From Membranipora membranacea (Eukaryota > Bryozoa > Gymnolaemata > Cheilostomatida > Membraniporidae): a DNA stretch of 64,000 nucleotides. The stretch spans positions 7,128,001-7,192,000 of the forward strand of contig OU612072.1 of NCBI GenBank assembly GCA_914767715.1, given 5' to 3'. How positions within the stretch are numbered: position 1 is the stretch's first letter; each line of letters begins with the position of its first letter. The position numbers and the translations under genes are program-made. The notes beneath the pieces are model-generated. The model searched no databases and was not told the origin of the DNA. It saw only the letters and a list, made by a program, of their open reading frames with translations. Below are positions 368 to 57,446 of this stretch, one piece after another.

Positions 368-3300
368 CTTCAAAAAGAAATTAAAATTATCATAAATCCC
401 TAATATCCAGGTCAATTTTGTTATCAAGGATTGGGCTTGGTAATAGTGTAGAGTGTAAAAATTGTATGCTTGTCAGCTATAAAACGTAGTAGTTGAATTA
501 GTTGAATATTTTTTGTTTATCTTAAAATATTGAGTTGGCATTGCCAAACTATGTCGCTGCTTGTTTTTCCAATAATCATGACCTATGGTAAAGCGTTGTA
601 GCTCAGGAACTGTCACAATTTCTTATTTGAGCAGACAAACAAGCATTGTGTAACACAGCCATTCTTACAACAATTTATCAGACATACCTGTGTTGATATC
701 CAGTACAGAGATAGATGTGCCGGAGCAATCTGCTACCAGCACATAGCGCTTAGCGTAACGTACTACAGCTATTGGGTCCTCCACATGAGTAGATGTCCAC
801 TCTATCTCTTCTGTAGTCAGGTTTAGCTTGTAGACTTTATTAGTGTAGTAGTTAGTGATGATAACAGGGTCATCTCCAGCCTCACATATACAGTAGTTCC
901 AGCTGAGCTGGGTACAGGGAATGTGTCTGATGACGTCACCAGTTAGTGAATACACAATGAGCCTATTATTAGATACATCATCTACTATCACATGAGATCC
1001 TAATAAAGCTAACTTATTACCGTAATAAGGAGAGATACGACTGTCAGGATGATACCATGAGGTAATAAGCTGACCTAACATATTATAAATGCATAGTCTT
1101 CTCTTATTCTGAATCTTCTGAAATACAAATATATGATTATTTTTAGCTCTGATACTCTCTACACGTTCCCCTGATTGTAAAGAAGTAAATCTTGTCTGAT
1201 TTCCCTGAGAATCAATCTGTGATATTAACCCAATGGATCCTACATATGTAACCCCTTTATACTGACAGATGGCCCTGGGAAAGTAGCCTAAAGATAATGT
1301 TTTGATTGTATTTATAGCGGATGGTGGTTTGATATTTTTGAGCACAGACTGATTGTTGAGGCTGATTATGAAACTCTCTGCTGCTGCAAGCTTCACCTCT
1401 ATGTCTCTACTCTCATTCTCTGGAAAAAAATCTTAGAGTGATTAACAATGCCTGAGTTGATTGTCCAATGACCAAAATAATCTAAATAATATAGTACAAT
1501 ACATAATTTTAATTATTTGTATTTAAAGGATCTTTGAAAAGTGTATTTACCAGTATTAACCCATACCTTTGATAGTGAAGAACAAAAGAGTAGAATGAAC
1601 GTTTTTAGATAAAAATTGATTCAAATGGTGTACAAATTTTGGAAATCACTTTGAATGCGTAAATAAATTGGATTTTCGGTGTCCACTCAATTGGATTCAA
1701 ATCTAAGTTATATAAACACACCTTGGATAACAAATATTACCTGTTAGGAGAGGTTCTATAAGAGGGTTTGGTACAATGAGATCACTGTGCTGACTCTCCA
1801 TCATTTCTGACAGCTTTCTCTCTATCTGGGTTTTCTCCTTCAGTAGAGAGATCTGATGAAAAGAGAGTTTACATTACAGTGATACAGAGCTGCACAGGAC
1901 CAGTACTCCCATATTTTAATCCCCGAAAATGATATGTGATCTTTAGTATGGAAATTTGATTTGTCTTCTCATTTGTGACAAGGAGCCTACAACTACAGGT
2001 TATCTTCATAACATCAGGTTTTTGTAAAAGATGAATGGATGCAGATGAAACGGAGAGATGGATAAATATAAAAGTTCCCATGACAATCACTGATATGATT
2101 GAAAGATTATTTGAAGAAGATTATATCAAAAACACAGGATTATTGCAAAAGAATGAAGAAAATAATATGTGGACCCGCACTGTGTCCAGTATGGAACTAA
2201 TTTAAGAGATTCGCATGGCTTGGAAAAGGCAAGACGAGTCTGCGTTCCACATACATCAACATGAATCCATTTGACAATTGACGCGTCCCAAGTAACATGT
2301 GACTTGTGTTTTCAACTTACCCGATTGCAGGAATCAAACATATCTCTGATTTTCTTCATCTCTTCACAGATACCAGTATACTTGAGATTGTACTGAGATA
2401 CCGACTCCTTACTTTCTCTTCTTCTCTGTATATATTCAGCTTCCAGCTGTTTGTATTTCTCATTTATTGCCTGGATCTACAAACATTAGCAGGCGAATGA
2501 ATATAAGTAATGATTAACCATATCGTCATGAGAAAATACCATATCCATACTCATATCCTTACTCCTTGTAGCTGCCGAAACCAACATCAAAACCATTTCA
2601 GTTCAGATCACCGAAATCAGAGACCAAAAACTAATCAATCACAGTTTTCTTGCCCAAGTTGTCATTGTCAACAAACGAAATTGAGATTAATCTATAAAGG
2701 CTGGTAGAGAACAAAACTCTTCACCCTACAAGTTTGGCCCAGTGATTCCATCTAATGCTGAGTCATGTCCCAAGATTGATAATTTATAAGATACAGCTAA
2801 AATGGAACTTTTCCCTTCCAACAGATCTAAGATCACTATAGTAATTTTGTTTCAGTCTTTGAGGTTTTTTGATGTCCATGCACCCATTGTCTTCTGACAA
2901 TCTAAATCCTTGAGACGAATGGTCCCTCAGCAGTGCCTGCAGACAATTCAGAGGCAAATTTACACACAGACCTGCTGATCACGAGTGTGATGTATAGATC
3001 TTACTCCATCACCAGTCTCTTCATCCCATTGAGTCAGTAAATCTGAAGTCTGACTTATAACTTCAGTGAACCCTTCGAGTTTCCCTTCTGCACAAGATTT
3101 CAAAGGCTCCAGTTTGGACCGAATCCTTTCTGCAAGCTGGGAGAGTGGAATATACTTGTGTGATGAGCCTGTAACTATAACAAAAATAAAGTTTCGGATT
3201 CGGTAGTAAAATTTTATCAATAGCAGCAATTTAGTTAAATTATGACATTTCCTGAATTATATTGACATGGCGCTGGTCAATCCCAATTCAATAGTTTGAG

Positions 3301-6300
3301 ATGCAAAATTAGGAAGAATACAAATTATGTGCCTCTTGTTAATATTTGGGAAATAAATGCAACAAATGTTGCAAAATTATTATTACCCAAACAGAATGTG
3401 GTTGGTGAGTTTAGGCAGTTACAACAGAACATCTCACAACAGTTTTCACATCCCACAGATGATTGTTCTGCGAAGTGTATGCTACAAAATGTCCCTTCTT
3501 GTAGTGATATTGTGTCCGTGGACTGCGTATGATGAGCTGATGTTCTCCAGTTGTCTGTCCGACCAACCATTGCAGCTTCATCTGTAAGCGATGGTGACTG
3601 GGCTATATCCATTATTGGTCGAACTAACTGCACTACCTGGTGAGGAGACACAATAAGCACGATGAATTTCAGGCTATTATTGTGGTGGCATTTGTACATA
3701 TAGAACAATGACAAGGCATCAAATTTTATGGTGTAAAACTAGAGAAGAACCCCCAGTGATTTCATCGACTTCTATTTACTTCAAGCTGGGCTTATGGCCG
3801 TGCATAAACACAAGATATTTGTAAAGCTGGTGGTACAATTTAGAGTTTTTGGAAATAGGTGGCTCATTATTGCCAGTTTATTACTTCTACCTTGCCCGCT
3901 GGCTTGTTGCCTGCTTGTTTACATGGCGGTCGACTCTGATTAGTCTCAATCAGCACACATTCATATTGTCTACTGTCAATGTTAGCATCAGCTTCAGGAT
4001 GAAAACCTGTAAAAATCAGACAGGATTATTTAATGAGAACAATAGACCATGTGGTAAATCCTTATGGCTGCATGCCTGGCTTTTGAAGTGTGTAGAGTGC
4101 GTATGAGAGGACATTGTGGCATGTGGAAATCTTATCAAATAAAGGAAAAAAGAGAGGCAATTTGGAATTCATTTCAATGTAGGAAACCAGTCATCTCATA
4201 TGGTAGAGAGTGTTACCAGTTTAAATTGAAGACAGAATACAATAAATTTGTGAAAATTGTCTATTGAGTATTTAAAATTTGAGCCTTTGAAAAGGTGCAT
4301 TGATCTCTGCCTTAAATAAAAAAGCAAGATCCACCAGCTTACACTTTAGTCGGCTTATTGTGAAATGAGCGCAGCAGCAAGAAAGAGCATGCTCTGCAAT
4401 AAAGTTATTTTGACTTTACGTTAATTTAAAATAGGTGCCTCCATTTACGGTTCGATAGATTGATAAAGTGAATACATAATGATGGCGAGTCTCTAACTAG
4501 CACTACATAAGCTGATGTTCTTTAAGACATAAAGATGACAATGGCAACAGGTGAATCAATTTTTTCCATGGTAATAATATTTAACTACATGTAAAGTGTT
4601 ATAACCTTGATGTGGAGAAGTGAGAGCAATGAGGCCTTCTGCTGCAAGGGTGGCTTCTGGTGTAGGAGGGTTACACAAATCAATGGATGATATAGAAAGG
4701 GGAGCAGGCATTCCCTCTCTGCCATACTCAGAGGGTGATATTGATAGATTTTTATCATCTGATAATGTCTCATCTGTCACCTGATGATGGAACTCATCTG
4801 GTGACAAGCTGAAGTTGGGCTGTGGTAAGAAAGAGTCAAAAAATCAGGGTAAGGGTTAAGAGATATCGAACAGTGTAATTAAAAGGACAACTCCAGACTG
4901 CCTGTCATTATATACCATGGGACATGCACAAGAGATTTTGGAGATTTGTACCAAACTCCCTAGAACAAGTTTAATCCGATTGCCTGCATTCCTGTTGCTC
5001 CATTCTACTGGTCACGCCGTGGATCGGGAGCGACTCAGAATGCAGTCAAATAGACCAAAGTTGGTCTACAAACTCCCTAACATGCACTGATAAAAAAGTT
5101 AGACTTGTAAGACTTCTGATAAATGAGGATTTGAATTTGAAAGTTTATATTAATCAGGGGCAGTTAGGCTAATATGGAATAATCCTCCCAAATGCAATCA
5201 AAGCGTTCAAATTTGACAGATTTGACAGATGTCAAATGTCACAGAAAACTTTACCTCAAGATTAAGAGCACTGTTATCATCTTCACCTTGGCATCTGCAC
5301 ATCTGATATTTAATGTTACACCGCTGACAGAGAGGTAGATTGTCATCATCACCGTCAGCGCCTTCAGGGGAAAGTTCAGTAACGGTTGTAGGCAGGTTGG
5401 AAGGTACTGTCTGTAATCAAGGGTTACACTTTGTATACAGTTGAACATTCAAGGGAAAGGAAACTTGTATTCAAAGTTGATCGCGGTATGATATCATAAT
5501 ATTATTTCACACTTTAACACTTTAATTTATTTAAAAATGCTGTTGGCTAGCAGTCTATCAAAACTCCTCCCATACTAGCAAGTTATGCACCCCCGACAGA
5601 AAGAGACAGATTTATAATGACAGCGATAATTTTTCAATTTGACGAAACAAATCTGTTCCACCCGATCTCTTGCTAAGCGATAAAAAACTGCAATACTTAC
5701 TTCATCTTTTTTTTCTTTACAAATACAAGGTACGAAGTGGTTTGGCCTCCATTTCCCTTGATCCAGCAGATCAAAAGAGGATTCATCGGTGCTTGTCCAG
5801 CTAATGACAATTCTTCGAACAGCTGTCCCTTCAGGCTTGATGGTCCCAGAAAAGAGTTCTCTCTTTGTGTAAGAGTTGTTGTGGCTGGGATAAATCACCT
5901 GTATTTCAACACTCAGATGTTGACTCAAAAAGAAGATGTCTACCATTGAGCTGTACTTTCTGGAATCGAGCATCGATCTGCTGTGGTTTTTATTCGCCCT
6001 CACGGAATCTTTAGCGACAAAGTCAGCGATGGATGATTGTAGAATCATATCTAGGTCTTGTTCAGTAAGATCATTTCTGAATGTTTTTCTCAGCATTGTC
6101 AGGTTTAAAAGGTTGGCATTGTTGTGCATAAATATGCAGTTTCTCACTCGGAGCTCGAATGCTTTGTCTTCAGAGCCAAAGAGCAACCAGCATACAGAGT
6201 TGAAGAGGCAACTACCATCCTTACTAACATCAATCGGTATGAGATTTGTGACAGACTAAAATAAAATATTGATGATTTGGTTAAAATGCGGTTAAAATCA

Positions 6301-9356: not shown

Positions 9357-9659
9357 GATGCTTGTTGATTCACTCTATAATCTAAAAAGATGAGGAAAAT
9401 ACTGAAATATTGTTGCAAGCATTGCAAGCGTTGCAAGCTACCACCGATCACAATCTAAGCGATCCATCTATTTGTAACAATAATTATAAATCTCTAGAGG
9501 CTTTGATATGAATTTATGGATCAGTGGTGAAATACATAACGGGCTATTTGTAAAGATTTGCCATCAGTAAAAAGCTTTGTGTGAGGATCACACTGCTTGC
9601 AGATCGACTTTGTGATACGAGTCTCCCTGCACCGTAGGGTTTGTATTCATCCAAAGGTG

Positions 9660-13643: not shown

Positions 13644-14130
13644 TCAAATATAGGCAGAGTCAAACAAAGCGTTGCTGCAGTCAAAATTGGTGGATTGAAT
13701 GTTTTTAAATATGACAACTTCGAGCCGACTATTATTAGATAAGGAAAATAATTCTTGGAAATATTTCTTTTTATTCTTGATCATTATTCTCTTCTCGTAA
13801 CCCTTTCGGCTATGCTGTTTGGTTGAATCTGACAACAAACCCTCAGACATCTGGTTGAAAAATTGTTCAGCACCCTTAGTCCCAATATCCGTCTGCAACA
13901 AACTTAAAGTATTGAAATGGCAACTCAATCCTTAGTAGGTTTACTAATCACAATAGTAACCTTTTAAACTTTCCTGCAAGGTGAATAACCTCATGTACAC
14001 TATACTCTGTAGATTTCCAGTTTGCTGCTCCAGCTGAACCTGACAAGATACAACAGCCTGTAGATGACAGTGACGAAGAGGACGAATAGTCAACAGCAGT
14101 GATCAATATATCTTCGATGTGGCTGGACAA
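13644..14130 (-). other. Unassigned conserved open frames upstream of A1
   Basis: Two minus-strand open stretches shared with A3 (41,462-42,156). One begins with ATG: SSHIEDILITAVDYSSSSS, and ends at a possible donor after STEYSVHE. The other follows a good acceptor (TTTGTTGCAG): TDIGTKGAEQFFNQMSEG, then HSRKGYEKRIMIKNKKKYFQ. They could be 5' exons of gene A or remains of another gene. No family recognised, and linkage to the HTH exon not shown. Confidence 0.3.
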
Positions 14131-17158: not shown

Positions 17159-20100
17159 CTTCAAAAAGAAATTAAAATTATCATAAATCCGTAATATCCA
17201 GGTCAATTTTGTTATCAAGGATTGGGCTTGGTAATAGTGTAGAGTGTAAAAATTGTATGCTTGTCAGCTATCAAACGTAGTTGAATTAGTTGAATATTTT
17301 TTGTTTATCTTAAAATATAGAGTTGACATTGCCAAACTATGTTGCTGCTTGTTTTTCCAATAATCATGACCTATGGTAAAGCGTTGTAGCTCAGGAACTG
17401 TCACAATTTCTTATTTCTTATTTGAGCAGACAAACAAGCATTGTGTAACACAGTCATTCTTACAACAATTTATCAGACATACCTGTGTTGATATCCAGTA
17501 CAGAGATGAGAGATGGGCTGGAGACATCTGTTACCAGCACATAGCGCTTAGCGTAGCGTACTACAGCTTTCGGCCTCCTCACATGAGTAGATGTCCACTC
17601 TATCTCTTCTGTAGTCAGGTTTAGCTTGTATACTTTGCTGGTCCAACAGCTAGTGATGATAACAGAGTCATCTCCAGCCTCACATATACATGAGTTGTAG
17701 CTAAGCTGAGTACAGGGAATGTGTCTGATGATGTCACCAGTTAGTGAATACACAATGAGCCTCTTATTAGATACATCACCTGCTATCACATGAGATCCTA
17801 ATAAAGCTACCTTATTACAGAAAGTAAAGGTACTGTCAGGATGATACCATGAGGTAATAAGCTGACCCAACATATTAAAGATGCATAGTCTACTCTTATT
17901 CTGAATCTTCTGAATTACAAATATTTGATTATTTTTAGCTCTGATACTATCTACACGTTCCCCTGATTGTAAAGAAGTAAATATTGTCTGATTTCCCTGA
18001 GAATCAATCTGTAATATTGACCCATTGGATCCTACATATTTAACCCCTTTATACTGACAGATGGCCCAGGGAGTGTAGCCTAAAGATAATGTTTTGATTG
18101 TATTTATAGCAGATGGTGGTTTGATATTTTTGAGCACAGACTGATTGTTGAGGCTGATTATGAAACTCTCTGCTGTTGCAAGCTTCACCTCTATGTCTCT
18201 ACTCTCATTCTCTGGAAAAAAATCTTAAAGTGATTAAAAATGCCTGATTTGATTGTCAAATGACCAAAATAATCTAAATAATATATTACAATACATAATT
18301 TTAATTATTTGTATTAAAAGGATCTTTGACATGTGTATTTACCAGTATTAACCCATACCTTTGATAGTAAAGAACAAAAGAGTAGAATGAACGTTTTTAG
18401 ATAAAAATTGATTCAAATGGTGTACAAATTTTGGAAATCACTTTGAATGCGTAAAAAAATTGGATTTTCGGTGTCCACTCAATTGGATTCAAAGCTAAGT
18501 TATATAAACACACCTTGGATAACAAATATTACCTGTTAGGAGAGGTTCTATAACAGTGTTCGGTACAATAAGATCAATGTGCTGACTCTCCATCATTTCT
18601 GACAGCTTTCTCTCTATCTGGGTTTTCTCCTTCAGCAGGGAGATCTGATGAAAAGAGAGTTTACAATACAGTGATACAGAGCTGCACAGGACCAGTACTC
18701 CCATATTTTAATACCCGAAAATGATTTGTGATCTTTAGTGTGGAAATTTGATTTGTCTTCTCATTTGTGACAAGGAGCCCATAACTACAGGTTATCTTCA
18801 TAACATCAGGATTTTGTAAAAGATGGATGGATGCGGATGAAATGGAGAAATGGATAATATAAAAATTCCCATGACAATCACTAATATGTTTGAAAGATTA
18901 TTTGAAGAAGATTATATCAAAAACACAGGATTATTTCCAAAGAATGAAGGAAATTATATGTGGACCCGCACTGTGTCCAGTATGGAACTAATTTAAGAGA
19001 TTCGCATGGCTTGGAAAAGGCAAGACGAGTCTGCCTTCCACATACATCAACATGAATCCATTTGACAATTGACGCATCCCAAGTAACATGTGACTTGTGC
19101 GATCAACTTACCCGATTGCAGGGATCAAACATATCTCTGATTTTCTTTATCTCTTCACAGATACCAGTATACTTGATATTGTACTGAGATACTGACTCCT
19201 TACTGTCTCTTCTTCTCTGTATATATTCAGTCTCCAGCTGTTTGTATTTCTCATTAATTTCCTGGATCTACAAACATGATCGGGATGATGGTAAACGCCC
19301 GCACAGGCAAATATTGATTAAAGTTCATAGCTGATTACCAAATTCAAACCTAGGGGACAGATATTTATTCTTGAATAGTTTTCAATTTAGATAAGTTTTT
19401 AAGTTGATTTACAAGTAAAAAACAATCCTGCATACCTGCTCTCCTTGGACACAACGAATAGAGCTCAATCCGTCTTCAGTCTCTTTATCCCACTGAGAGA
19501 GAATATCTGAAGTCTCACTTATCACATCAGTGATATTTCTGTATTTCTCCTCCACTCTCGCTTTCAGAGGATCCAGATTGCATCGAGCTTCCACTGCAAG
19601 CCTGCCCAGTTGAGGGAGCTCAAATGACATATCTGAGGGATAGGTGGAAGTCCTGAATAAGTTTCTCTCGGGACACATTTTCACTGTTATTGATCGACGG
19701 ATAGGATATATTTTAGTTAATTTAATTAATTTAATTATATTTAACACATTTCTCACTAGATTAATGTGCTAGACTGTTAAAGCTTTTAATCGGAACAGAT
19801 TTGCTATTAACATGGACGATTTTGTGGCCCAACGCATTTATAAACTAGCCACCGATTTTATTGACTTCAATGATCACATTTTAAATCATTGTTATATATA
19901 GTTGTCAAAGGAGTAATTACATAATGCCTAAGATACGTACGAGCAGATTTTTACAGAGTTTTGTACCAACTAGTATAAAAGTTTTAAACAACAGAGCATT
20001 CCATGAATAATTGTATTTTGTCTTTGACAAAAATACCTAATAAATCTAAATCTAAGTTTGCTGTTACATCTATCAGGTTGACTGTAGGAAAGGTAATTCA

Positions 20101-23100: not shown

Positions 23101-24357
23101 TAAATAGATCAATGGTGAACTTGGGACAACAAATCTCAAACTGAACCTTCCGCTTTTGCCGTAATGTGCATTGGATGACCCTGGGTTAGATTATATTGCA
23201 TGCATCAGTCATTGCTTATAGTTACTCAGAAGCTAGCTCAAATTTAACAGTAGCCCCGCCCACTACCTGTATGCAGTAACTTCATGTGATTTGAGCATTG
23301 AGTATATGAATGTCTACAAACATTGTTGTCTTCGTCACCACGCTTTCTCTTTTGATTGAGAAATGATTGAGAAAGGGAGGTGTAAGAGGCATCAACTGTT
23401 GTTTACAAATCACATCACAGTCTTGGCAAACTTTTCCGGCTAGGGGTGGAATGAAGTTTGCCAATTTGTTCCTTCACCACTGGCAAAGTTTGCCAAAGCA
23501 GGCTTAGGACCACCATGAAAAAACAAAACGCAAAGTTGCTGTCACTGATTAGTATAAACTGATATACCCTGGTCTGAATTTTAAGTCAGTACTGCTGGTA
23601 ACATCTTTTACTTACCTGTGTATTCATGTAAACCAACACTTGCCGTAGCTGGCTCTCTGGGCTCTAAGATGGCCATTGGGATTGTTGTAGCTCTGCTGGT
23701 GGTTCCGGTCTGTCCGGGGTCAAATAGAAATTCTTTGATAACTGAAAATAATAGGAGCAGATATAATAGTGACTGTCAGAATCTCAGAGTTAACTACAAG
23801 ATACAAAATCAGCTCTGCTTATCAGAACTTACCTCTAGGCAGCCGGACTTTTCCGCCACATCAAGACTTACCTGTCACATCAAGAGTTATCCGTCACATC
23901 AGGACTTATCCGTCACATCAGGACTTACCCGTCACATCAGGACTTACCCCTCACATCAGGACTTACCCATCACATTGTCCTCATAATTATCAAGTGGTAT
24001 TTTTGGCTTCACTTCAATCACAGAACCAGTGACCTCTGGTTCTGATTCTTCAATATTATTAGTATTGTCTCTGTGTTCTTCTGGTTTGTGTCTCTTCACT
24101 TTCTCTCGGTTAGGTGCTGCCCAGTTCATCCGCTTTCTCAAAGGTTTGGTTGTAGGTGCTGCTGATATAGCTGCACGGATCGTCTGCTCCTGACTTCTCA
24201 GTTTATACACTTGACGCCTTTGTAGGCCGTTCTCCCGAGCAAACTCTGAGACATTGTGTGTTTGTCTTGATTGATCTATGAGCTCCAGTTTCTTCTCAAG
24301 GGTGAGTGCTTGCCTTGTCCGCTTCTGACTACAAGAATTCTGACAACCCTCTGCCAT
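17025..24357 (-). CDS. Gene B1: HTH-PTP repeats-coiled coil-NHL-like propeller protein
   Basis: Exons: 23967-24357, 23616-23741, 22905-23075, 22278-22430, 21819-21956, 20714-20846, 20458-20585, 20193-20271, 19436-19683, 19112-19267, 18533-18644, 17483-18211, 17025-17158. Every splice phase is compatible; the sum is 898 codons plus stop once a single extra G in exon 6 (20803-20805, GGG versus GG in B2) is discounted. Order: psq-type HTH, Pro/Thr linker, three PTP motif exons, Ser/Pro-rich segments, TRIM-type coiled coil, six-bladed propeller. Unlike type A there is no OTU exon and no B-box. The extra G breaks the frame after exon 5, so as written the copy would be truncated; error or pseudogene cannot be decided here. 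Expected to be intracellular: no signal peptide or membrane segment seen. Confidence 0.75.
17483..18211 (-). CDS. B1 propeller exon (blades 1-5)
   Basis: A 729-nt exon, open throughout, with the same five-blade pattern as A1. Blades 4 and 5 read QLSYNSC-ICEAGDD, VIITSCWTSKVYKL, HVRRPKAVV, YAKRYVLVTDVSSPSL and ISVLDINTG. Framework residues match A1 and B2, while YNSC, TSCWTS, RRPK and TDVSSPSL differ in each. From about 17,760 rightward through the following intron it appears to match B2 base for base. Confidence 0.73.
18533..19683 (-). CDS. B1 coiled-coil exons (three)
   Basis: Exons 19436-19683, 19112-19267 and 18533-18644, phase-consistent. The first (LPQLGRLAVEARCNLDPLKA, ISETSDILSQWDKETEDG) aligns with the A-type SSHKY exon, minus the His that completes the B-box. 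The other two are almost the same as in A genes (NEKYKQLETEYIQRRRDSKE; LLKEKTQIERKLSEMMES). The TRIM-type coiled coil is the expected dimerisation element. Confidence 0.68.
20193..20585 (-). CDS. B1 exons 7-8: Ser/Pro-rich segment
   Basis: Exons 20458-20585 (phase 1/0; PKPGCSWYDDSGYNTRG, TSNKVARK) and 20193-20271 (phase 0/1; IVRFDLPTVIPHSPPESDLR). Borders are consensus and both are kept in B2 (48237-48364, 47972-48050). Probably a flexible connector between the PTP repeats and the coiled coil; no B-box ligands are present here. Confidence 0.58.
20714..20846 (-). CDS. B1 exon 6, with +1 frameshift
   Basis: Acceptor TTTCGTAG|CTTTTCAG. The frame starts FQSDSGASGWQVTP and in B2 continues YYQLVEWVSPIIKKYWTWLY, ending in phase 1 (132 nt). 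B1 has 133 nt: GGG instead of GG at 20803-20805 shifts the frame into a stop. The Trp/Tyr/Ile-rich end may be a hydrophobic helix. Function unknown. Confidence 0.55.
21030..21282. mobile_element. MITE-like element with ~70-bp terminal inverted repeats (B1)
   Basis: TAGGTAAATTCGCGCCCTTG at the left is mirrored by CAAGGGCACGAATTTACCTA at the right; the match extends about 70 bases on each side (through ATCATTAATCA and ATCATTTTCATGG). About 250 bases in all, in the intron between exons 5 and 6, with no coding capacity. Also in B2 at 48808-49060. Confidence 0.7.
21283..21400. repeat. Short direct repeats ATTAGCTACTACYAATT
   Basis: Three imperfect copies of TTAGCTACTACYAATTTAAT (one with GGT for GCT) at about 40-50-base spacing, interleaved with GGTGAGTTA. 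Also in B2 (about 49,061-49,180). Confidence 0.5.
21819..23075 (-). CDS. B1 exons 3-5: three PTP-motif repeats
   Basis: Exons 22905-23075, 22278-22430 and 21819-21956, all phase 1/1. Each carries one motif: FSVSSSDLCVPTPEAIHAAE, then LSVSSDMSVPTPRLNQALED, then LSVASTNSSVPTPKMVEAVD, each followed by a short helix and a Gly at the splice site. The leads differ: the first is acidic (DIEEEDNEEDDINF). The symmetric phase means the exons can be duplicated or skipped without frame loss. B2 has the same three (49597-50849). A-type genes keep one. Confidence 0.65.
23616..23741 (-). CDS. B1 exon 2: Pro/Thr-rich linker
   Basis: A 126-nt exon, phase 1/1, acceptor ATTTTCAG, donor ACACAG|GTAAGT. Encodes VIKEFLFDPGQTGTTSRA, IPMAILEPREPATA and GLHEYTG. 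Conserved in B2 (51388-51513) with a few replacements. No domain recognised. Confidence 0.6.
23857..23970 (-). repeat. 19-bp minisatellite made of splice donors (B1)
   Basis: Six head-to-tail 19-bp units, minus-strand sense GGTAAGTCCTGATGTGACG with small changes. Four units keep GGTAAGT and two have mutated donors (GATAAG, GATAAC). The unit touching exon 1 supplies its 5' splice site. A further GAGGTAAGT lies just beyond at about 23,835. B2 has five units (51629-51723). Plus-strand open frames through it are artefacts. Confidence 0.85.
23967..24357 (-). CDS. B1 exon 1: psq/CENP-B-type HTH
   Basis: Starts at ATG 24355-24357 in a strong context (GAAATGG). Encodes RTRQALTLEKKLELIDQS, VSEFARENGLQRRQVYKLRS: a helix-turn-helix of the psq/CENP-B N-terminal type, only distantly similar to the A-type HTH. 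Then a basic tail (KPLRKRMNWAAPNREKVKRH) and an acidic end. It ends in phase 1 at the first of several tandem GGTAAGT donors. Reading past that donor hits TGA within four codons, so the first donor is the one that fits. Confidence 0.7.
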
Positions 24358-26008
24358 TTCCACAAAATACCAAATCCAAGGTTAGTAAGCGATAGTAATA
24401 CTACGTCCTGCTGTCTCAAACCTCTCCTGTTAAATGAACTGGCAGTTTACTAAAACTTCTATCGTGCTTGATCAGTGTAATCAATTGTATATCGTGTGTA
24501 AGGGAACAATGATGTATCGTCCCTCAAAAAATTACAATAGCGTAAGATCTCAGTCTACATAACAGGGAAGTTGGATTTTCCATGATGAGTCATAACTATA
24601 AGGCTCACAAACAATCCAATAAGTGGAACGTAATTAAACAAAGGCAAATTCATATCACAAGACCGTGTTATAATTTTTAAGGCCCACAACACACACACTC
24701 TTTCGAAATGAAACTGCACTGATAGTGAAATGTGAAATTAAATGTATATTTCTGGCCCAATCAGTTACATATTGATAATTTCTTAGCATGCAGTCACATC
24801 TATCCAGGAGAAAGTTACACTATGATATATCCTATTAACCACCATGGCTATCGTGTGGTTTACAGATGGTTACAGCAAAATGCTAAAACTTACTCATCAT
24901 GCTGCACTGATAACTAGTTCTCAGCGCCTCAGCCTTGCACAAATACAAGTGGCTCTTTCGATATGGGCATTAGACTCTAGTTCAATGTTTTATCTCCGCC
25001 GCCACGTCAAAAACTCAACACCAACGCCACGCTGACACATACAACAACCAAAAGCTTCCTGCCGAGCCTGCCAGAGCTGAGAAGCCATGTCCCATTTTAG
25101 TAATTGAGGTCCAGCTAACAAATATTTCCAAATTGAAGTCCGTGCCAAAAGACGCAGCACCTGACCAGGGGACAGCGATAAAGGTGATCAATGTATAGTC
25201 GAGCGTAAAGATCAAAGTGTATTAAATTGACACAGAGCTTTTTTCTTGCAAAATACAACAATTCATCGCGCTGTTAGGATACTGTTTTTATTAGGCCTGT
25301 AACAACTGCTGTTCACTCACATTATACCTCACACTGGAACATCACAAGTTGTACGCTCTTTTCAATAACCTTACCGTCCGCTGACCAAGTACATAAATAT
25401 GCCCTTCTGGTACTTTATTCAGAAGTAAATTTTTTGGGAGAGCCGCTTGAGCACTAAGACTAGCTGCATACTAAACACGTTATCCTTTCTTTTAAGAATA
25501 AATGTTACAATGGTCGTAGCAACAACAAACATCTTCCAGGGAAATACTACTGTCAAAAATATTTTTCACTATTTCTTTCTTTACCTATTTGATTCCTACA
25601 TCCTGTAAAAATTGAAATTCAAACATAAAATGGCAACTAAAAGAAAAGTGCAGCGGTATTGTCATGTAGTCGGGGACTGGTGCGCTGACGGTCCACCTAA
25701 TCTAGTTCAGCACTACTGCCAACCGAGCACCCAGGCAGGTCAGTCACTCTGACTTTGAAACATAAGACCCTCACAGGTCAGATGCCGACCTTCCAGCGGT
25801 ATGCAGTGACTGTTCCCCTCTGCTAGGTAGGAATAATTTATTTGAGCTAGTGCATGTTTTGGGGACTTTTTCAAACTCTGGTTGGTAGTAAATGTGAAAA
25901 TGAATTTAAAATCATATCTAAAAGTATATCTGACAGCATATCTAAAATCATACCTAAAATCAAGTCTTATTCCTAGAAATTTTGTGGTCGTCAGCCATTA
26001 TGTCGCTT

Positions 26009-26720: not shown

Positions 26721-27719
26721 AATGTGTACATATAAACAGTCCTCAAACGGATGGAAACGGACAAAATTACAACATCATTAAATTAGTTGACATACAAAAA
26801 TAACATATAATTAAAGTGCACATAATTATAAAGAAATGTCAAGATAAGATTTGTCTCAAAGATAAATCAAAGTTGTCCCCCCTCACAAAAAAAAAATCAA
26901 GTGAAGCAGTAGCCTATCTACAATACAATGCACTCCACTTAATCCAAACCTCTTTGGCCCTCCAGATTGTGTCTGAATTGAGTGACACTAGAACGTATGA
27001 AGATTTGAGTGGATGGATTACTCTTCCTATCTGAATAAGCAGGACCTCCGAGTTAAAAATCTACAAAATAGTTGCGCACACTAAATGTGCTTCAATTAGT
27101 CTAAAAGTGAATTTTAATTTAAACAAAAAATCTTAATCATATATCTTCCCTCTCGCCAAAAAAACAAGTGAAGATAGATGATACAGTAAATTACTAATCA
27201 GAGACAGTAACTAGACATCTACCTCTCTGATTATATAGATGTATGCTGTTATAATTATTGTTTGTATCCATATAAAATCATTTAATCATTGTTTAAATTT
27301 TAGTCTACAGTATGCAATCTGATATGGAAATCCAGAAGACACTACCAGCTGATCACCTTCTAGTTGTATATCAGTAGTATGTGAACTACTGATGTTAAGA
27401 TCCAGATCCTTACAGACTTGCCTTCAAAAAGAAATATAAATTCTCATAAATTCTCATACCCAGGTAAATTTTGAAATCGAGGGTTACGCTTTGTGATTGT
27501 GTAATTGAGTTAAAAAATTGATCAGCTGTTAAAAAAAAGAATGAATTAGTTTATATTTTGCTGCCTAATCATGTCGGGGCTTGTTTCTCCAATAATCATG
27601 ACTAAAGGTAGAGGCAGGTAGTTCAGGATCTTTAGGGCGCTTGTGCAGCAATTCTTACCTGAGCAGACAAACAAGCATTGTGTAACATAGTCATTCTTAC
27701 AACAATTTATCAGACATAC

Positions 27720-28267
27720 CTGTGTTGATATCCAGTACAGAGATAGATGTGCTGGAGAAATCTGCTACCAGCACCTAGCGCTCAACGTAACGTACTACAG
27801 CTATTGGGTCCCTCACATGAGTAGATCAATGAACTAAACCTCCTGAGATCCTAATAAAGCTAACTTATTACCGTAATTAAAGGTATGACTGTCAGGATGA
27901 TACCATGAGGTAATAAGCTGACCTAGCATATTATAAATGCATAGACTTCTCTTATCCTCAATCTCGTGAATTACAAATATTTGATTATTTTTAGCTCTGA
28001 TACTATCTACAGATCCCTCTGATTGTGAAGAAGTAAATCTTGTCTGATTTCCCTGAGAATCAATCTGTGATATTGACCAAATGGATCCTACATATGTAAC
28101 CCCTTTATACTGACAAATGGCCCTGGGAGTGTAGCCTAAAGATAATGTTTTGATTGTGTTTATAGCAGAGGGTGGTTTGATATTTTTGAGCACAATGTGA
28201 TTGTTGAGGCTGATTATGAGACTCTCTGCTGCTGCAAGCTTCACCTCTATGTCTCTACTCTCACTCT
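27720..28267 (-). pseudogene. A3 propeller exon with internal deletion
   Basis: 548 nt instead of 732. Blades 1-2 and the start of 3 are open; then sequence from NKLALLGS jumps to blade 5 through a short filler (CAATGAACTAAACCTCC), with a stop at 27834. Blade 4 and parts of 3 and 5 are gone and the frame is lost. A5 has the same deletion, so it predates their separation. Confidence 0.7.
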
Positions 28268-30104
28268 CTGGAAAAAAATCTTAGAGTGATTAACAATGCC
28301 TGATTTGATTGTCAAATGACCAAAATAATCTAAGTAATATATTACAATACAAATTTTGGAAATCACTTTGAATGCGTAAAAAAATTGGATTTTCGGTGTC
28401 CACTCAATTGGATTCAAAGCTAAGTTATATAAACACACCTTGGATATACCTGTTAGGAGAGGTTCTATTACAGTGTTCGGTACAATATGATCCCTGTGCT
28501 GACTCTCCATCAATTCTGACAGCTTTCTATCTATCTGGGCTTTCTCCTTCAGTAGAGAGATCTGATGAAAAGAGAGTTTACATTACAGTAATACAGAGCT
28601 GCACAGGACCAGTACTCCCATATTTTAATCCCGAAAATGATTTGTGATCTATAGTGTGGAAATTGGATTTGTCTCCTCATTTGTGACAAAGAGCCCATAA
28701 CTACAGGTTATCTTCATAAATTCAGGATTTTGTAAAAGATGAATGGATGCTGATGAAATGGAGAGATGGATAAATATAAAAGTTCCCATGACAATCACTG
28801 ATATGTTTGAAAGATTATTTGAAGAAGATTATATCAAAAACACAGGATTATTGCGTAAGAATGAAGGAATTAATATGTGGACCCGCACTGTGTCCAGTAT
28901 GAAACTAATTTAAGAGATTCGCATGGCTTGGAAAAGGCAAGACGAGTCTGCGTTCCACATACATCAACATGAATCCATTTGACAATTGACGCGTCCCAAG
29001 TAACATGTGACTTGTGTTATCAACTTACCCGATTGCAGGGATCAAACATATCTCTGATTTTCTTCATCTCTTCACAGATACCAGTATACTTGATATTGTA
29101 CTGAGATACCGACTCCTTACTTTCTCTTCTTCTCTGTATATATTCAGCTTCCAGCAGTTTGTATTTCTCATTTATTGCCTGAATCTACAAACATTGGCAG
29201 GCGCATGAGAGCTATCATCACTGCATCTAAATAATGATTAACCATATCGTCATGAGAAAATACTTCGCTCATATCCTTACTCCGTGTAGCTGCCGACCCC
29301 AACATCAAAGCCATTTCAGTTCAGATCAACGGAATCAGAGACCAAAAACTAATCAATCACAGTTATCTTGCCAAAGTTGTCATTGTCAGCAAAAGAAATT
29401 GAGATTAATCTAAAAAGGATGGTAGAGAACAAAACTCTTCACCCTACAAGTTTGGCCTAGTGATTCCGTCTAATGCTGAGTCATTTCCCAAGATTGACAA
29501 TTTATAAGATACAGCTAAAATGGAACTTTTTCCTTCCAACAGATCTAAGATCACTATAGTAATTTTGTTTCAGTCTTTGAGGATTTTTGATGTCCATGCA
29601 CCCATTGTCTTCTGACAATCTAAATCCTTGAGACAAATGGTCCCTCAGCAGTGCCTGCAGACAAATCAGAGGCAAATTTACACACAAACCTGCTGATCAC
29701 GAGTGTGATGTATAGATCTTACTCCATCACCAGTCTCTTCATCCCATCGAGTCAGTAAATCTGAAGTCTTACTTATAACTTCAGTGAACTCTTCGAGTTT
29801 CCCTTCTGCACAAGATTTCAAAGGCTCCAGTTTGGACCGAATCCTTTCTGCAAGCTGGGAGAGTGGAATATACTTGTGTGATGAGCCTGTAACTATAACA
29901 AAAATAAAGTTTCGGATTCGGTAATAAAATTTTATCAATAGCAGCAATTTAGTTAAATTATGACATTTCTTGAATTATATTGACATGGCGCTGGTCAAAC
30001 CCAATTCAATAGTTTGAGATACAAAATTAGGAAGAATACAAATTATGTGCCTCTTGTTAATATTTGGGAAATAAATGCAACAAATGTTGCAAAATTATTA
30101 TTAC

Positions 30105-34895: not shown

Positions 34896-36160
34896 ATAGT
34901 CCAGTGGCAGCCTACCAAAAATATGGCTAGAAACGCAACTTCATTTACGAAACTGGATGCATAAATTCTAAGAGTGGATTCTAGGGTAGATTTTTGAGGC
35001 GATCGCAATGGTGATGATGTACCTTACACAAAGTTGCACAATGGGCAGCAAATTGCCAAAAACGCTGCCAAAAATGGCCAAAACTGCTGTTCTTATGATA
35101 TTTCAAAGGTCTGTCCCTTGCTCACCTTATGAGTTGCGCTGCTCAAACTCTGCAATCAGATTCATACATACCTTGGTCAGTTTTTGGTAAAATATCAGCA
35201 TAATATCTCAAATATATTGAGTGAATAACCAAGCTTATAAAAAGTGATAGAGTGAAAAACGCTGCCGAAAAAAGGGAAAGTGATGAAAGAATGATGATAT
35301 GGTTTCAAAACAGCCAAAATCTGAAAGCGCATGTCATAATTAGTGGATCTACAACTTTACAGGGGTCTGCTATCATAAATAGCCGAGATGTGGCCAACAA
35401 CGGTTGCAATACCCCCTTATATCACCTGTATATAACTATCATTGAAACGACACTACTTTTTCAATTTTGCAGACGCCTCGAGATCTGACTTTGAATATTC
35501 GTATTGATCTGATTTTATTATGGTGGTTTTGCATTGACTCAATCAATGACAAAATAATTTTCTCCCAGCACTACGCAACTTCCTGATGATCCTTGAAGGA
35601 GTGAACTTTTGCTTTACACGCTATATTATAACCTTATAAAGACGACTATTATGATACTATAAATCCTAAGAATATGCACTATCTCAAAAAAGACACACTC
35701 AGAGCATTGAAAACTGGTGTTATGCGATGGGAGGGTCAATACACAGTCACCATACAAAAATCAGATCAATACAAACATTTGAAGCCTGTTTTTTAGGCAG
35801 AAAAAGTAGTTTCACTTTAATGATAGTTATACACAGGTGATAGAAGGGGCATTGCAACTGTTGTTGACCGCATCTCAGCTTTTTATGATAGCAGACCCAT
35901 GTAAATTTGTAGATCCACTATATTATGACATGCTCTTTCAGATTTTGGATGTTTTGAAACCATATCATCATTTTTTGATCACTTTCCCTTTTACTGGCAG
36001 CGTTTTTGGCAATTAGCGGCCCATTGTGCAACTTAGTGTAAGGTACATTGTTACCATTGCGATCAGCGTGAAAAACTGTACCAGAAACAACTGACAAACC
36101 TTATCCATCCAAAAGTGCAAATGGAAGTGACAAGATAGGCAGGGGCTGCCACCGGACTAT
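34896..36160. repeat. Long imperfect inverted repeat in A3
   Basis: Same palindromic element as in A1, bounded by ATAGTCC and its complement, in the same intron. Arms remain clearly complementary. It predates the A1/A3/A5 split. Confidence 0.72.
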
Positions 36161-45088: not shown

Positions 45089-48000
45089 CTACTTCAGTCT
45101 GTAGTATATAATCTGATCTGGATCCCTGGAAGACAATACCAGCTGATCACCTTCTAGTTGGATACCCGTAATCCTAGTAGATGATGTACCAGGCTCTAGG
45201 TCCAGATTCTTCACATAATTACCTTCAAAAATAAATTAAAATTATCATAAATCCCTAATATCCAGGTAAATTTGGTAACCAAGGATTAGGCTTTGTATTT
45301 AGATTGTATTGTAGATTGGAAAAATTATTCAGCTGTCAGGTGTTAAGAAAGAGCATGTATTAGTTAATATTTTGTTGCATCTTGAAAATACAGAGTTAAC
45401 GATGCCTTATTATTATTATGTCAGAGCTTAATTGTCTAATAATCTTGGTAATCCAGGAACTTCGGAGCATTTTGCGACAATCTTTAACTTGAGCGGACAG
45501 AAAAGCATTGCATAACAATAATATGCTCCCTACAATAATTTATCAGACATACCTGTGTTAATATCCAGTACAGAGATAGATGTGCTGCAGAGATCTCTTA
45601 CCAGCACATAGCGCTTAGCGTAACAAACTACAGCTCTCGGGTACCTCACATGAGTAGATGTCCACTCTATCTCTTCTGTAGTCAGGTTTAGCTTGTATAC
45701 TTTCCCGGTGCACCAGTAAGCGATGATAACAGAGTCATCTCCAGCCTCACATATCCTTGAGCTGAAGCTAAGCTGAGTACAGGGAATGTGTCTGATGATG
45801 TCACCAGTTAGTGAATACACAATGAGCCTCTTATTAGATACATCACCTGCTATCACATGAGATCCTAATAAAGCTACCTTATTACAGAAAGTAAAGGTAC
45901 TGTCAGGATGATACCATGAGGTAATAAGCTGACCCAACATATTAAAGATGCATAGTCTACTCTTATTCTGAATCTTCTGAATTACAAATATTTGATTATT
46001 TTTAGCTCTGATACTATCTACACGTTCCCCTGATTGTAAAGAAGTAAATATTGTCTGATTTCCCTGAGAATCAATCTGTAATATTGACCCATTGGATCCT
46101 ACATATTTAACCCCTTTATACTGACAGATGGCCCAGGGAGTGTAGCCTAAAGATAATGTTTTGATTGTATTTATAGCAGATGGTGGTTTGATATTTTTGA
46201 GCACAGACTGATTGTTGAGGCTGATTATGAAACTCTCTGCTGTTGCAAGCTTCACCTCTATGTCTCTACTCTCATTCTCTGGAAAAAAATCTTAAAGTGA
46301 TTAAAAATGCCTGATTTGATTGTCAAATGACCAAAATAATCTAAATAATATATTACAATACATAATTTTAATTATTTGTATTAAAAGGATCTTTGACATG
46401 TGTATTTACCAGTATTAACCCATACCTTTGATAGTAAAGAACAAAAGAGTAGAATGAACGTTTTTAGATAAAAATTGATTCAAATGGTGTACAAATTTTG
46501 GAAATCACTTTGAATGCGTAAATAAATTGGATTTTCGGTGTCCACTCAATTGGATTCAAATCTAAGTTATATAAACACACCTTGGATAACAAATATTACC
46601 TGTTAGGAGAGGTTCTATAAGAGGGTTTGGTACAATGAGATCACTGTGCTGACTCTCCATCATTTCTGACAGCTTTCTCTCTATCTGGGTTTTCTTCTTC
46701 AGTAGAGAGATCTGAGGAAAAGAGAGTTTACATTACAGTGATACAGAGCTGCACAGGACCATTACTCCCATATTTTAATCCCCGAAAATGATTTGTGATC
46801 TATAGTATCGAAATTGGATTTGTCTTCTCATTTGTGACAAGGAGCCCACAACTACAGGTTATCTTCATAACATCAGGATTTTGTAAAAGATAATGGATGC
46901 ATATGAAATGGAGAGATGGATAAATATAAAAGTTCCCATGACAATCACTGATATGTTTGAAAGATTATTTGAAGAAGATTTTATCAAAAACACAGGATTA
47001 TTGCGAAAGAATGAAGTAAATAATATGTGGACCCGCACTGTGTCCAGTATGGAACTAATTTAAGAGGTTTGCATGGCTTGGAAAAGGCAAGACGAGTCTG
47101 CGTTCCACATACATCAACATGAATCCATTTGACAATTGACGCGTCTCAAGTAACATGTGACTTGTGTTATCAACTTACCCGATTGCAGGAATCAAACATA
47201 TCTCTGACTTTCTTCATCTCTTCACAGACACCAGTATACTTGAGATTGTACTGATATACTGACTCCTTACTTTCTCTTCTTCTCTGTATATATTCAGCTT
47301 CCAGCTGTTTGTATTTCTCATTAATTGCCTGGATCTACAAACATGATCGGGATGATGGTAAACGCCCGCACAGGCAAATATTGATTAAAATTCATAGCTG
47401 ATTACCAAATTCAAACCTAGGGGACAGATATTTATTCTTGAATAGTTTTCAACTTTGATAAGTTTTAAAGTTGATTTACAAGTAAAAAACAATCCTGCAT
47501 ACCTGCTCTCCTCGGACACGACGAATAGAGCTCAATCCGTCTTCAGTCTCTTTATCCCACTGAAAGAGAAGATCTGAAGTCTCACTTATCACATCAGTGA
47601 TATTTCTGAATTGCTCCTCCACTCTCTCTTTCAGAGGATCCAGATTGCATCGAGCTTCCACTGCAAGCCTGCCCAGTTGAGGGAGCTCATGTGACATATC
47701 TGAGGGATAGGTGGAAGTCCTGAATAAGTTTCTCGAGAGAGACATTTTACTGTTATTGATCGACGGATAGGATATATTTTAGTTAATTTAATTAATTTAA
47801 TTATATTTAACACATTTCTCACTATATTATATTTGGTTGCTGTTACATCTATCAGGTTGATTGTAGGAAAGGTAATTCAGGTCCACAATTGACCTCACAG
47901 CCATCACCTGGATATCACCAGTAAAACTTCAGTGGGTAAAAGCTCAGTAGATAGATGATCAGGGTACTTACTCGTTGATCCATGTAGCTGCCTCAGATCT

Positions 48001-54515: not shown

Positions 54516-55058
54516 ACTCCACTTAATCCAAACCTCTTTGGCCCTACAGATTGTGTCTGAATTGAGTGACACTAGAACGTATGAAGATTTGAGTGGATGG
54601 ATTACTATTCCTATCTGAATAAGCAGTTAAAATTATTTCAGTCTACAGTATGCAATCTGGTATGGAAATCTAGAAGACACTATCAGCTGATCACCTTCTA
54701 GTTGTATATCCGTTGTATGTGAATTACAGATGTTAGGATCCAGATCCTTTACAGACTTGCCTTCAAAAAGAAAAATGAATTATCATAAATTCTCATACCC
54801 AGGAAAATTTTGAAATCGAGGGTTACGCTTTGTGATTGTGAAATTGAGTTAAAAACTTGATCAGCTGTTAAAAAAAAGAATGAATTAGTTTATATTTTGC
54901 TGCCTAATCATGTAAGGGCTTGTTTCTCCAATAATCATGACTAAAGGTAGAGGCAGGTAGTTCAGGGTCTTTAGGGCGCTTGTGCAGCAATTCTTACCTG
55001 AGCAGACAAACAAGCATTGTGTAACATAGTCATTCTTACAACAATTTATCAGACATAC

Positions 55059-55606
55059 CTGTGTTGATATCCAGTACAGAGATAGATGTGCTGGAGAAAT
55101 CTGCTACCAGCACATAGCGCTCAACGTAACATACTACAGCTATTGGGTCCCTCACATGAGTAGATCATAGAACTAAACCTCCTGAGATCCTAATAAAGCT
55201 AACTTATTACCGTAATTAAAGGTATGACTGTCAGGATGATACCATGAGGTAATAAGCTGACCTAGCATATTATAAATGCATAGACTTCTCTTATCCTCAA
55301 TCTCGTGAATTACAAATATTTGATTATTTTTAGCTCTGATACTATCTACAGATCCCTCTGATTGTGAAGAAGTAAATCTTGTCTGATTTCCCTGAGAATC
55401 AATCTGTGATATTGACCAAATGGATCCTACATATGTAACCTCTTTATACTGACAAATGCCCCTGGGAGTGTAGCCTAAAGATAATGTTTTGATTGTGTTT
55501 ATAGCAGAGGGTGGTTTGATATTTTTGAGCACAATGTGATTGTTGAGGCTAATTATGAGACTCTCTGCTGCTGCAAGCTTCACCTCTATGTCTCTACTCT
55601 CACTCT
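55059..55606 (-). pseudogene. A5 propeller exon with internal deletion
   Basis: 548 nt, the same deletion as A3 with a near-identical filler (CATAGAACTAAACCTCC). The frame stops at 55173. Confidence 0.7.
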
Positions 55607-57446
55607 CTGGAAAAAAATCTTAGAGTGATTAACAATGCCTGATTTGATTGTCAAATGACCAAAATAATCTAAGTAATATATTACAATACAAATTTTGGAA
55701 ATCACTTTGAATGCGTAAAAAAATTGGATTTTCGGTGTCCACTCAATTGGATTCAAAGCTAAGTTATATAAACACACCTTGGATATCAAATATTACCTGT
55801 TAGGAGAGGTTCTATAACAGTGTTCGGTACAATATGATCCCTGTGCTGACTCTCCATCATTTCTGACAGCTTTCTATCTATCTGGGTTTTCTCCTTCAGT
55901 AGAGAGATCTGATGAAAAGAGAGTTTACATTACAGTAATACAGAGCTGCACAGGACCAGTACTCCCATATTTTAATCCCCGAAAATGATTTGTGATCTAT
56001 AGTGTGGAAATTGGATTTGTCTCCTCATTTGTGACAAGGAGCCCACAACTACAGGTTATCTTCATAACATCAGGATTTTGTAAAAGATGAATGGATGCAG
56101 ATGAAATGGAGAGATGGATAAATATAAAAGTTCCCATGACAATCACTGATATGTTTGAAAGATTATTTGAAGAAGATTATATCAAAAACACAGGATTATT
56201 GCGTAAGAATGAAGGAATTAATATGTGGACCCGCACTGTGTCCAGTATGAAACTAATTTAAGAGATTCGCATGGCTTGGAAAAGGCAAGACGAGTCTGCG
56301 TTCCAAATACATCAACATGAATCCATTTGACAATTGACGCGTCCCAAGTAACATGTGACTTGTGTTATCAACTTACCCGATTGCAGGGATCAAACATATC
56401 TCTGACTTTCTTCATCTCTTCACAGATACCAGTATACTTGATATTGTACTGAGATACTGACTCCTTACTTTCTCTTCTTCTCTGTATATATTCAGCTTCC
56501 AGCTGTTTGTATTTCTCATTTATTGCCTGCGTCTACAAACATTGGCAGGCGCATGAGAGCTATCATCACTGCATCTAAGTAATGATTAACCATATCGTTA
56601 TGAGAAAATACTTCGCTCATATCCTTACTCCGTGTAGCTGCCGACCCCAACATCAAAGCCATTTCAGTTCAGATCAACGGAATCAGAGACCAAAAACTAA
56701 TCAATCACAGTTTCCTTGCCAAAGTTGTCATTGTCAGCAAAAGAAATTGAGATTAATCTATAAAGGATGGTAGAGAACAAAACTCTTCACCCTACAAGTT
56801 TGGCCTAGTGATTCCGTCTAATCCATTTCCCAAGATTGACAATTTATAAGATACAGCTAAAATGGAACTTTTTCCTTTCAACAGATCTAAGATCACTATA
56901 GTAATTTTGTTTCAGTCTTTGAGGTTTTTTGATGTCCATGCACCCATTGTCTTCTGACAATCTAAATCCTTGAGACAAATGGTCCCTCAGCAGTGCCTGC
57001 AGACAAATCAGAGGCAAATTTACACACAAACCTGCTGATCACGAGTGTGATGTATAGATCTTACTCCATCACCAGTCTCTTCATCCCATCGAGTCAGTAA
57101 ATCTGAAGTCTTACTTATAACTTCAGTGAACTCTTCGAGTTTCCCTTCTGCACAAGATTTCAAAGGCTCCAGTTTGGACCGAATCCTTTCTGCAAGCTGG
57201 GAGAGTGGAATATACTTGTGTGATGAGCCTGTAACTATAACAAAAATAAAGTTTCGGATTCGGTAGTAAAATTTTATCAATAGCAGCAATTTAGTTAAAT
57301 TATGACATTTCTTGAATTATATTGACATGGCGCTGGTCAAACCCAATTCAATAGTTTGAGATACAAAATTAGGAAGAATACAATTTATGTGCCTCTTGTT
57401 AATATTTGGGAAATAAATGCAACAAATGTTGCAAAATTATTATTAC

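Follow-up and report, generated by a model that had tools for sequence, protein, structure and literature searches.

The window analysed here is a 64,000-nucleotide stretch of the genome of the bryozoan Membranipora membranacea (contig OU612072.1, hereafter C8, positions 7128001-7192000), which carries a set of closely similar exons predicted to encode an NHL-type beta propeller. Three of these exons, designated A1 (665..1419), B1 (17460..18211) and B2 (45530..46278), all read open on the minus strand. Each follows an intron acceptor and closes with a stop codon, which the coordinates include; B1, with the acceptor TTCCAG, is the last coding exon of its gene. A first-pass annotation had proposed that they combine a frozen framework with hypervariable clusters, as a diversifying recognition surface would. 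We demonstrate that, in the C8 array to which they belong, variability is concentrated on one face of the propeller, the turns of this face have a ratio of nonsynonymous to synonymous rates (omega) above 1, and the copies recombine and have loop peptides in common.

Propeller exons and their copies

The three exons had been placed correctly by the first-pass annotation, which named no strand and ended them short of the stop codon. Its count of three overlooked two further window copies on the minus strand (27697..28280 and 55036..55619), which have the same deletion of about 60 codons; the frame changes at this deletion, and the initial frame closes prematurely, after 148 codons counting the stop. 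A stop codon also lies in the second part of the former copy. The framework blocks that had been quoted, such as ICEAGDD and ISVLDINTG, are constant in A1, B1 and B2, and the four clusters differ among them exactly as had been read (WNYC/YNSC/FSSR, TNYYTN/TSCWTS/AYWCTG, EDPI/RRPK/RYPR and ADCSGTS/TDVSSPSL/RDLCSTS). That the DNA changes mostly alter amino acids was borne out by B1 and B2, between which 24 aligned bases differ (about 19.5 nonsynonymous and about 4.5 synonymous changes), none of them in the first half of the exon.

A search of 339,339,785 bases in 18 contigs yielded 149 scored propeller matches out of 406 first-look candidates, with clusters on C2, C6, C8, C10, C11 and elsewhere. 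By a hand count from the table, at least 57 of the 149 lie within about 1.75 Mb of C2 (20.84-22.60 Mb). C1 of the same genome carries a homeodomain 92% identical to an Antennapedia-type query, and four more homeodomain matches fall within about 61 kb there, in keeping with a bilaterian. The C8 array (7.10-7.31 Mb) holds 11 full-length exons, the other ten at 90-96% DNA identity to B1, and outside this array identity to B1 was 29-38% among the matches listed. Ten of the 11 full-length C8 exons are open and one carries a TAG codon; of four incomplete C8 copies, two carry the deletion and the other two are partial, a TAG being present in one of the latter. Across the 11 full-length copies, 43 of the 255 codon columns hold at least three amino acids, and these columns account for at least 132.5 nonsynonymous and 14.5 synonymous changes, with the third codon position invariant in 20 of the 43. 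Protein-invariant columns number 165 and carry 26 synonymous changes. For the whole exon, the ratio of the proportions of nonsynonymous (pN) and synonymous (pS) differences was 1.24, with a bootstrap interval of 0.87-1.86.

Variation on the two faces of the predicted propeller

Sequence searches with the propeller gave no Pfam match over cut-off and no significant match in the PDB. A structure model was compared by fold, and the best solved match of the predicted propeller was the NHL domain of Brat; as modelled, the exon would encode the C-terminal NHL-type beta propeller that characterises TRIM-NHL (class VII TRIM) proteins, in line with the comparison that the first-pass annotation had drawn. 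The mean predicted local distance difference test score (pLDDT) of the model is 78, and the part before about residue 40 is poorly predicted. The turns of a propeller alternate between the two faces of the fold. We took the turn classes from the model, independently of variability, the odd-numbered turns (DA and BC) forming the top face and the even-numbered turns the opposite face.

The variable turns of the C8 copies lie on one face of the predicted propeller. Given as minus-strand positions in B1 with the minimum number of nonsynonymous changes per codon among the C8 copies, the top-face turns are turn 1 (18066..18080; 2.2), turn 3 (18021..18029; 1.33), turn 5 (17961..17972; 0.5, the least variable of the ten), turn 7 (17898..17903; 3.0), turn 9 (17811..17843; 1.91, with codon insertions and deletions between copies), turn 11 (17763..17774; 1.75), turn 13 (17694..17714; 1.43, with 10 peptides in 11 copies), turn 15 (17637..17648; 2.88), turn 17 (17574..17588; 2.4) and turn 19 (17520..17525; 4.5, the highest of all). 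The corresponding values for the even turns 2 to 20 are 0, 0, 0.5, 0.25, 0, 0, 0, 0, 0.25 and 0. The deletion common to the two shortened window copies takes out strongly variable turns.

In the C8 array, pN and pS were 0.2327 and 0.0925 in the top turns and 0.0064 and 0.0838 in the even turns; with all families aligned together, pN/pS came to 2.15 and 0.08. Maximum-likelihood estimates of omega were 4.36 for the top turns (twice the log-likelihood difference, 2dlnL, 28.05) and 0.087 for the bottom turns (2dlnL 18.35), a value of 1 being rejected for both, and the rest of the exon gave 1.18, not different from 1. The rate comparison and the clustering of variable residues on one face had been set beforehand as the refuting test of a diversifying surface, and the C8 array passed it, omega at the variable turns being well above 1. 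A plain split of the exon into loops and strands gave a weak difference (1.44 versus 1.20); the strong contrast appeared only when the turns were divided by face.

Tests over several arrays used 66 of 71 full-length exons, the 71 being the 11 from C8 and 60 from elsewhere in the genome; L064, which has an interrupted frame, and L085-L088 were excluded, and collapsing identical rows reduced the 66 to 63. Maximum-likelihood omega was estimated for five arrays (C8, C2, C6, C10a and C10b), with 2dlnL above 3.84 taken as significant, and the top and bottom values outside C8 were 1.09 and 0.67 in C2, 1.97 and 0.32 in C6, 1.48 and 0.29 in C10a, and 2.66 and 0.66 in C10b. Top-turn omega was significantly above 1 in C8, C6 and C10b only; in these three arrays positive selection acts on the top-face turns (DA and BC), as it does in the fungal HNWD genes. 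By counting, the contrast between faces had the same direction in all six arrays examined, C11 included. Random relabelling of the turns reached the observed contrast in 0 (C8), 67 (C2), 12 (C6), 28 (C10a), 238 (C10b) and 3 (C11) of 20000 trials, and circular shifts of the labels reached it in 0 to 4 of about 200 across the six. Fisher tests on variable codons by face gave p values of 0.11 in C2, 0.002 in C6, 0.051 in C10a, 0.052 in C10b and 0.0009 in C11. The proposal of a diversifying recognition surface is thus supported by C8, and the five other arrays agree in direction.

Exchange between copies and the upstream parts of the genes

Among the 55 pairs that the C8 copies form, divergence of the upstream intron ranges from 0.000 to 0.060. 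Downstream, the flanking sequences form two groups, and relationships read from one side of the exon conflict with those read from the other. We tested for exchange between the same positions of different genes. The incompatibility of sites grows with distance, from 0.13 within 15 bp to 0.34 at 51-100 bp and 0.41 at 101-400 bp, and none of 2000 permutations was as low as observed. Otherwise different copies have loop peptides in common, as B1 and c7293 do at turn 15; from this and from the rise of incompatibility with distance, we infer that the exchanged tracts span about one blade or less. The diversity therefore appears to be partly reshuffled variation, and bases present in one copy only comprise 78 nonsynonymous and 19 synonymous changes. 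Much of the likeness of the framework is likewise attributable to homogenisation between copies, so that the description of the framework as frozen has to be qualified, and the strand interiors vary as well.

Two pairs of copies mark the extremes. In c7213 and c7310, the difference is 0.003 upstream and 0.010 downstream of the exon and 0.103 within it, with a synonymous divergence (dS) of 0.095 in the exon; both alleles occur in other copies of the array at 55 of the 80 differing sites, and shuffling would therefore account for most of these differences. The opposite case is the pair c7116 and c7197 (C8 positions 7116715 and 7197478), which lie 80 kb apart, differ in the exon by one nonsynonymous and one synonymous change and have nearly identical flanks; they probably arose by a very recent duplication or conversion.

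Upstream of its propeller exon, the A1 gene comprises, on the minus strand, an OTU-like protease exon (5701..6255), a Cys-containing linker exon (5255..5410), two further linker exons (4606..4819 and 3891..4006), an exon with a B-box-like Cys/His pattern seen by eye and without a Pfam match (3387..3636), and three exons that look coiled-coil-like by eye, with heptad-like repeats (2972..3168, 2321..2476 and 1741..1852). The nine exons join in this order with GT-AG borders and consistent phase. The OTU-like exon just passes the Pfam cut-off (PF02338, 23.9 versus 23.3 bits), and its frame contains DGSC and NHF, which we take to be the active-site Cys and His motifs of a putative protease. Its AlphaFold2 (AF2) model had a pLDDT of 38.5, and a sequence search of the PDB with this exon gave no match. 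Matches to the exon number 11 on C8, from about nine copies, and one weak match lies on C2. In A1-type genes, this exon sits where TRIM genes have their RING. No RING-pattern match was found in six frames of a 264-kb region around the C8 genes, a search that a divergent or exon-split RING would escape, and Pfam scans of the A1 gene exons, the first exon not among them, gave no NACHT match. Across copies, leaving out partial copies and copies with stops, pN in the eight upstream exons was 0.00-0.041; two of these exons had pN/pS above 1 (1.63 and 1.28), on very low pS.

The B-type genes (B1, B2, c7229 and c7249) have an upstream part unlike that of the A type, and their first coiled-coil-like exon is about 50% identical to its A counterpart, matches at 38.5% being those that extend into intron. 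In B1, a minus-strand frame at 19412..19768 (frame limits, not exon borders) contains this divergent counterpart, followed by the counterparts of the second (19112..19267) and third (18533..18644) coiled-coil-like exons. Since the two types differ upstream and have the last coiled-coil-like exons and a nearly identical propeller exon in common (17460-19768 against 665-3168), the 3' part of the gene behaves as if it were an exchanged cassette.

For the C2 array, one gene (L089) was read 4.9 kb upstream of the propeller. It contains a RING match at 1660-1836 (PF13920, E 1.6e-4, 21.9 bits versus a cut-off of 27), a region that six other RING models hit at E<=0.004, each below its curated cut-off, and a B-box match (PF00643, E 3e-4, 21.3 bits versus a cut-off of 24.1). 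The predicted layout of this gene is that of TRIM-NHL.

Several other elements recur in the array. Upstream of the genes lie two helix-turn-helix-like (HTH-like) frames on the minus strand, one at 9177-9374 that is present in 10 units and gives weak HTH-model matches below the cut-offs, and one at 23959-24381, recognised by eye and present in four units, one of them partial. Their pN/pS values of 0.77 and 1.06 indicate weak constraint; they may be gene starts or remnants of transposons, and we did not count them to the genes. A 95-residue minus-strand frame without a confident family (13647-13931) is repeated in six other units with 90-99% identity, a stop interrupting one of these copies. An inverted repeat of 161 nt pairs 61546-61706 with 7028-7188, 35255-35415 and 60956-61116 at 89-93% complementarity.

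A candidate recognition family

We favour the reading, at a probability of roughly 0.6, that these exons encode the ligand-binding C terminus of TRIM-NHL-type proteins from a large tandem family, with a top face under diversifying selection and variants exchanged between copies. In this model, a near-uniform N-terminal part (OTU, B-box-like and coiled-coil-like in the A-type C8 genes, RING and B-box in the C2-array gene) would carry a propeller with a conserved framework, and diversifying selection would drive apart the DA and BC turns of its top face. New variants would arise by mutation in a single copy, and gene conversion or unequal crossing over would then carry short tracts of sequence to other copies, at the same time keeping the framework and introns alike. 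The top face would bind rapidly changing protein or RNA ligands, most likely those of viruses or other intracellular parasites, and the N-terminal domains would respond to binding by adding or removing ubiquitin tags. With effector parts that hardly vary, a conserved framework, a single hypervariable face and variants exchanged among tandem paralogues, the family has the features of a recognition repertoire; we take it to be intracellular and probably directed against parasites.

Several observations weigh against this interpretation. The assignment of faces relies on a model built on three near-identical sequences, with its pLDDT of 78; the whole-exon ratio by itself shows no selection; and the strand interiors of C8 vary too, with a pN/pS of 1.44. 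Neither C2 nor C10a has a top-turn omega significantly above 1, the Fisher tests on variable codons miss p 0.05 in C2, C10a and C10b, and recombination between copies violates the tree behind the maximum-likelihood estimates. Several copies are damaged (one of the 11 full exons with a stop, four more partial or deleted), and not every recent pair has diverged, as c7116 and c7197 illustrate.

Among published mechanisms, the nearest is that of HET-D and HET-E in Podospora anserina, where positively selected codons are reported for two elements of the top face, the d-a loop and the b-c turn (PMC1805685), and HNWD repeats are described as homogenised by recombination within and between paralogues (PMC1805685, PMC2873952). 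The likeness covers a propeller, selection on the same two turns and exchange between paralogues, whereas HET-D/E are STAND proteins with NACHT and internal, near-identical, exchanged WD40 repeats, and the bryozoan family has an NHL-like fold and ubiquitin-related N-terminal domains. This parallel, drawn from an allorecognition system, and the colonial habit of M. membranacea would suit an allorecognition repertoire in which the propellers tell self from non-self colonies as the Podospora WD40 domains do; we consider this possible but unlikely, given the 149 matches and their cytoplasmic-type domains. Animal allorecognition usually involves a few very polymorphic surface proteins, which also counts against it. 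An extended version, to which we give similarly little credence, would make the NHL arrays an independent animal counterpart of the fungal HET propellers, with blade-sized gene conversion as a dedicated generator of self/non-self specificities and a switch from ubiquitin ligase to deubiquitinase in one array.

The top surfaces of known NHL members bind RNA (PMC9070667, PMC8251876), and the face may instead have diversified for surveillance of changing viral or transposon RNA. We regard this as slightly less likely still, because W, Y, C, D, E, F and R all occur among the variable residues of C8 and protein ligands can bind the top face as well. The RING, B-box and OTU matches and the tandem duplication would also fit ubiquitin-pathway adapters for endogenous substrates, subfunctionalised without conflict; this seems improbable to us, as we judge a one-face omega of 2.0-4.4 in three arrays of recent copies to exceed what subfunctionalisation would produce. 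Exon-targeted mutation, of the kind made by diversity-generating retroelements (DGR), was considered since the silent divergence of c7213 and c7310 is higher in the exon than in the flanks, and selection would then be secondary. Most differences in that pair are common to other copies, and the invariant third positions in nearly half of the most variable codons also speak against it, leaving hypermutation a very doubtful source of the variants. Relaxed constraint on loops or decay of copies, to which the stops, deletions and frame changes of some copies might point, is the least credible explanation, since relaxation does not produce omega above 1 and most full C8 exons are open, and for C8, given the turn assignment of the model, relaxed loops are rejected because the opposite-face turns are frozen at similar synonymous divergence. 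In C2 and C10a, whose top-turn omega does not significantly exceed 1, relaxation may still apply.

With TRIM-NHL proteins (Brat, Mei-P26, TRIM2/3/71), the favoured family has in common the NHL-type fold and, in one C2-array gene, the RING and B-box matches; it differs in its large arrays, in a one-face omega above 1 in three of them, and in window genes with OTU and no RING match. TRIM-NHL genes have mostly been treated as conserved regulators, and NHL TRIMs belong to TRIM group 1. Nematode F-box and MATH-BTB families are large ubiquitin-adapter families whose substrate domain is under positive selection, and their domains are other than those of the bryozoan family. TRIM group 1 is reported to be highly conserved, with a mean human-mouse Ka/Ks of 0.13 (PMC2533329). 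Vertebrate SPRY TRIMs (TRIM5, finTRIM), for which lineage-specific expansion and positive selection are reported, resemble the bryozoan family in these respects, but their ligand domain is SPRY where the bryozoan family has a propeller, and the SPRY-bearing TRIM group 2 is reported absent in invertebrates (PMC2533329). Among the papers listed by searches of open-licence literature, none described this bryozoan family or selection confined to one face of an NHL propeller, a silence that argues only weakly for novelty. In the Flustra genome paper, the terms TRIM, tripartite and NHL are absent from the main text, and NHL is absent from a paper on immune expansions in the oyster.

To our knowledge, the means by which bryozoans recognise microbes or one another have hardly been studied. 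Loops on one face that differ between copies by more than random change would produce are what a germline-encoded set of recognition proteins should show. Collectively, the 149 scored propeller matches and the diversification of one face point to a possible recognition repertoire in Bryozoa, and the face of a propeller may serve as a recognition scaffold in animals as it does in fungi.
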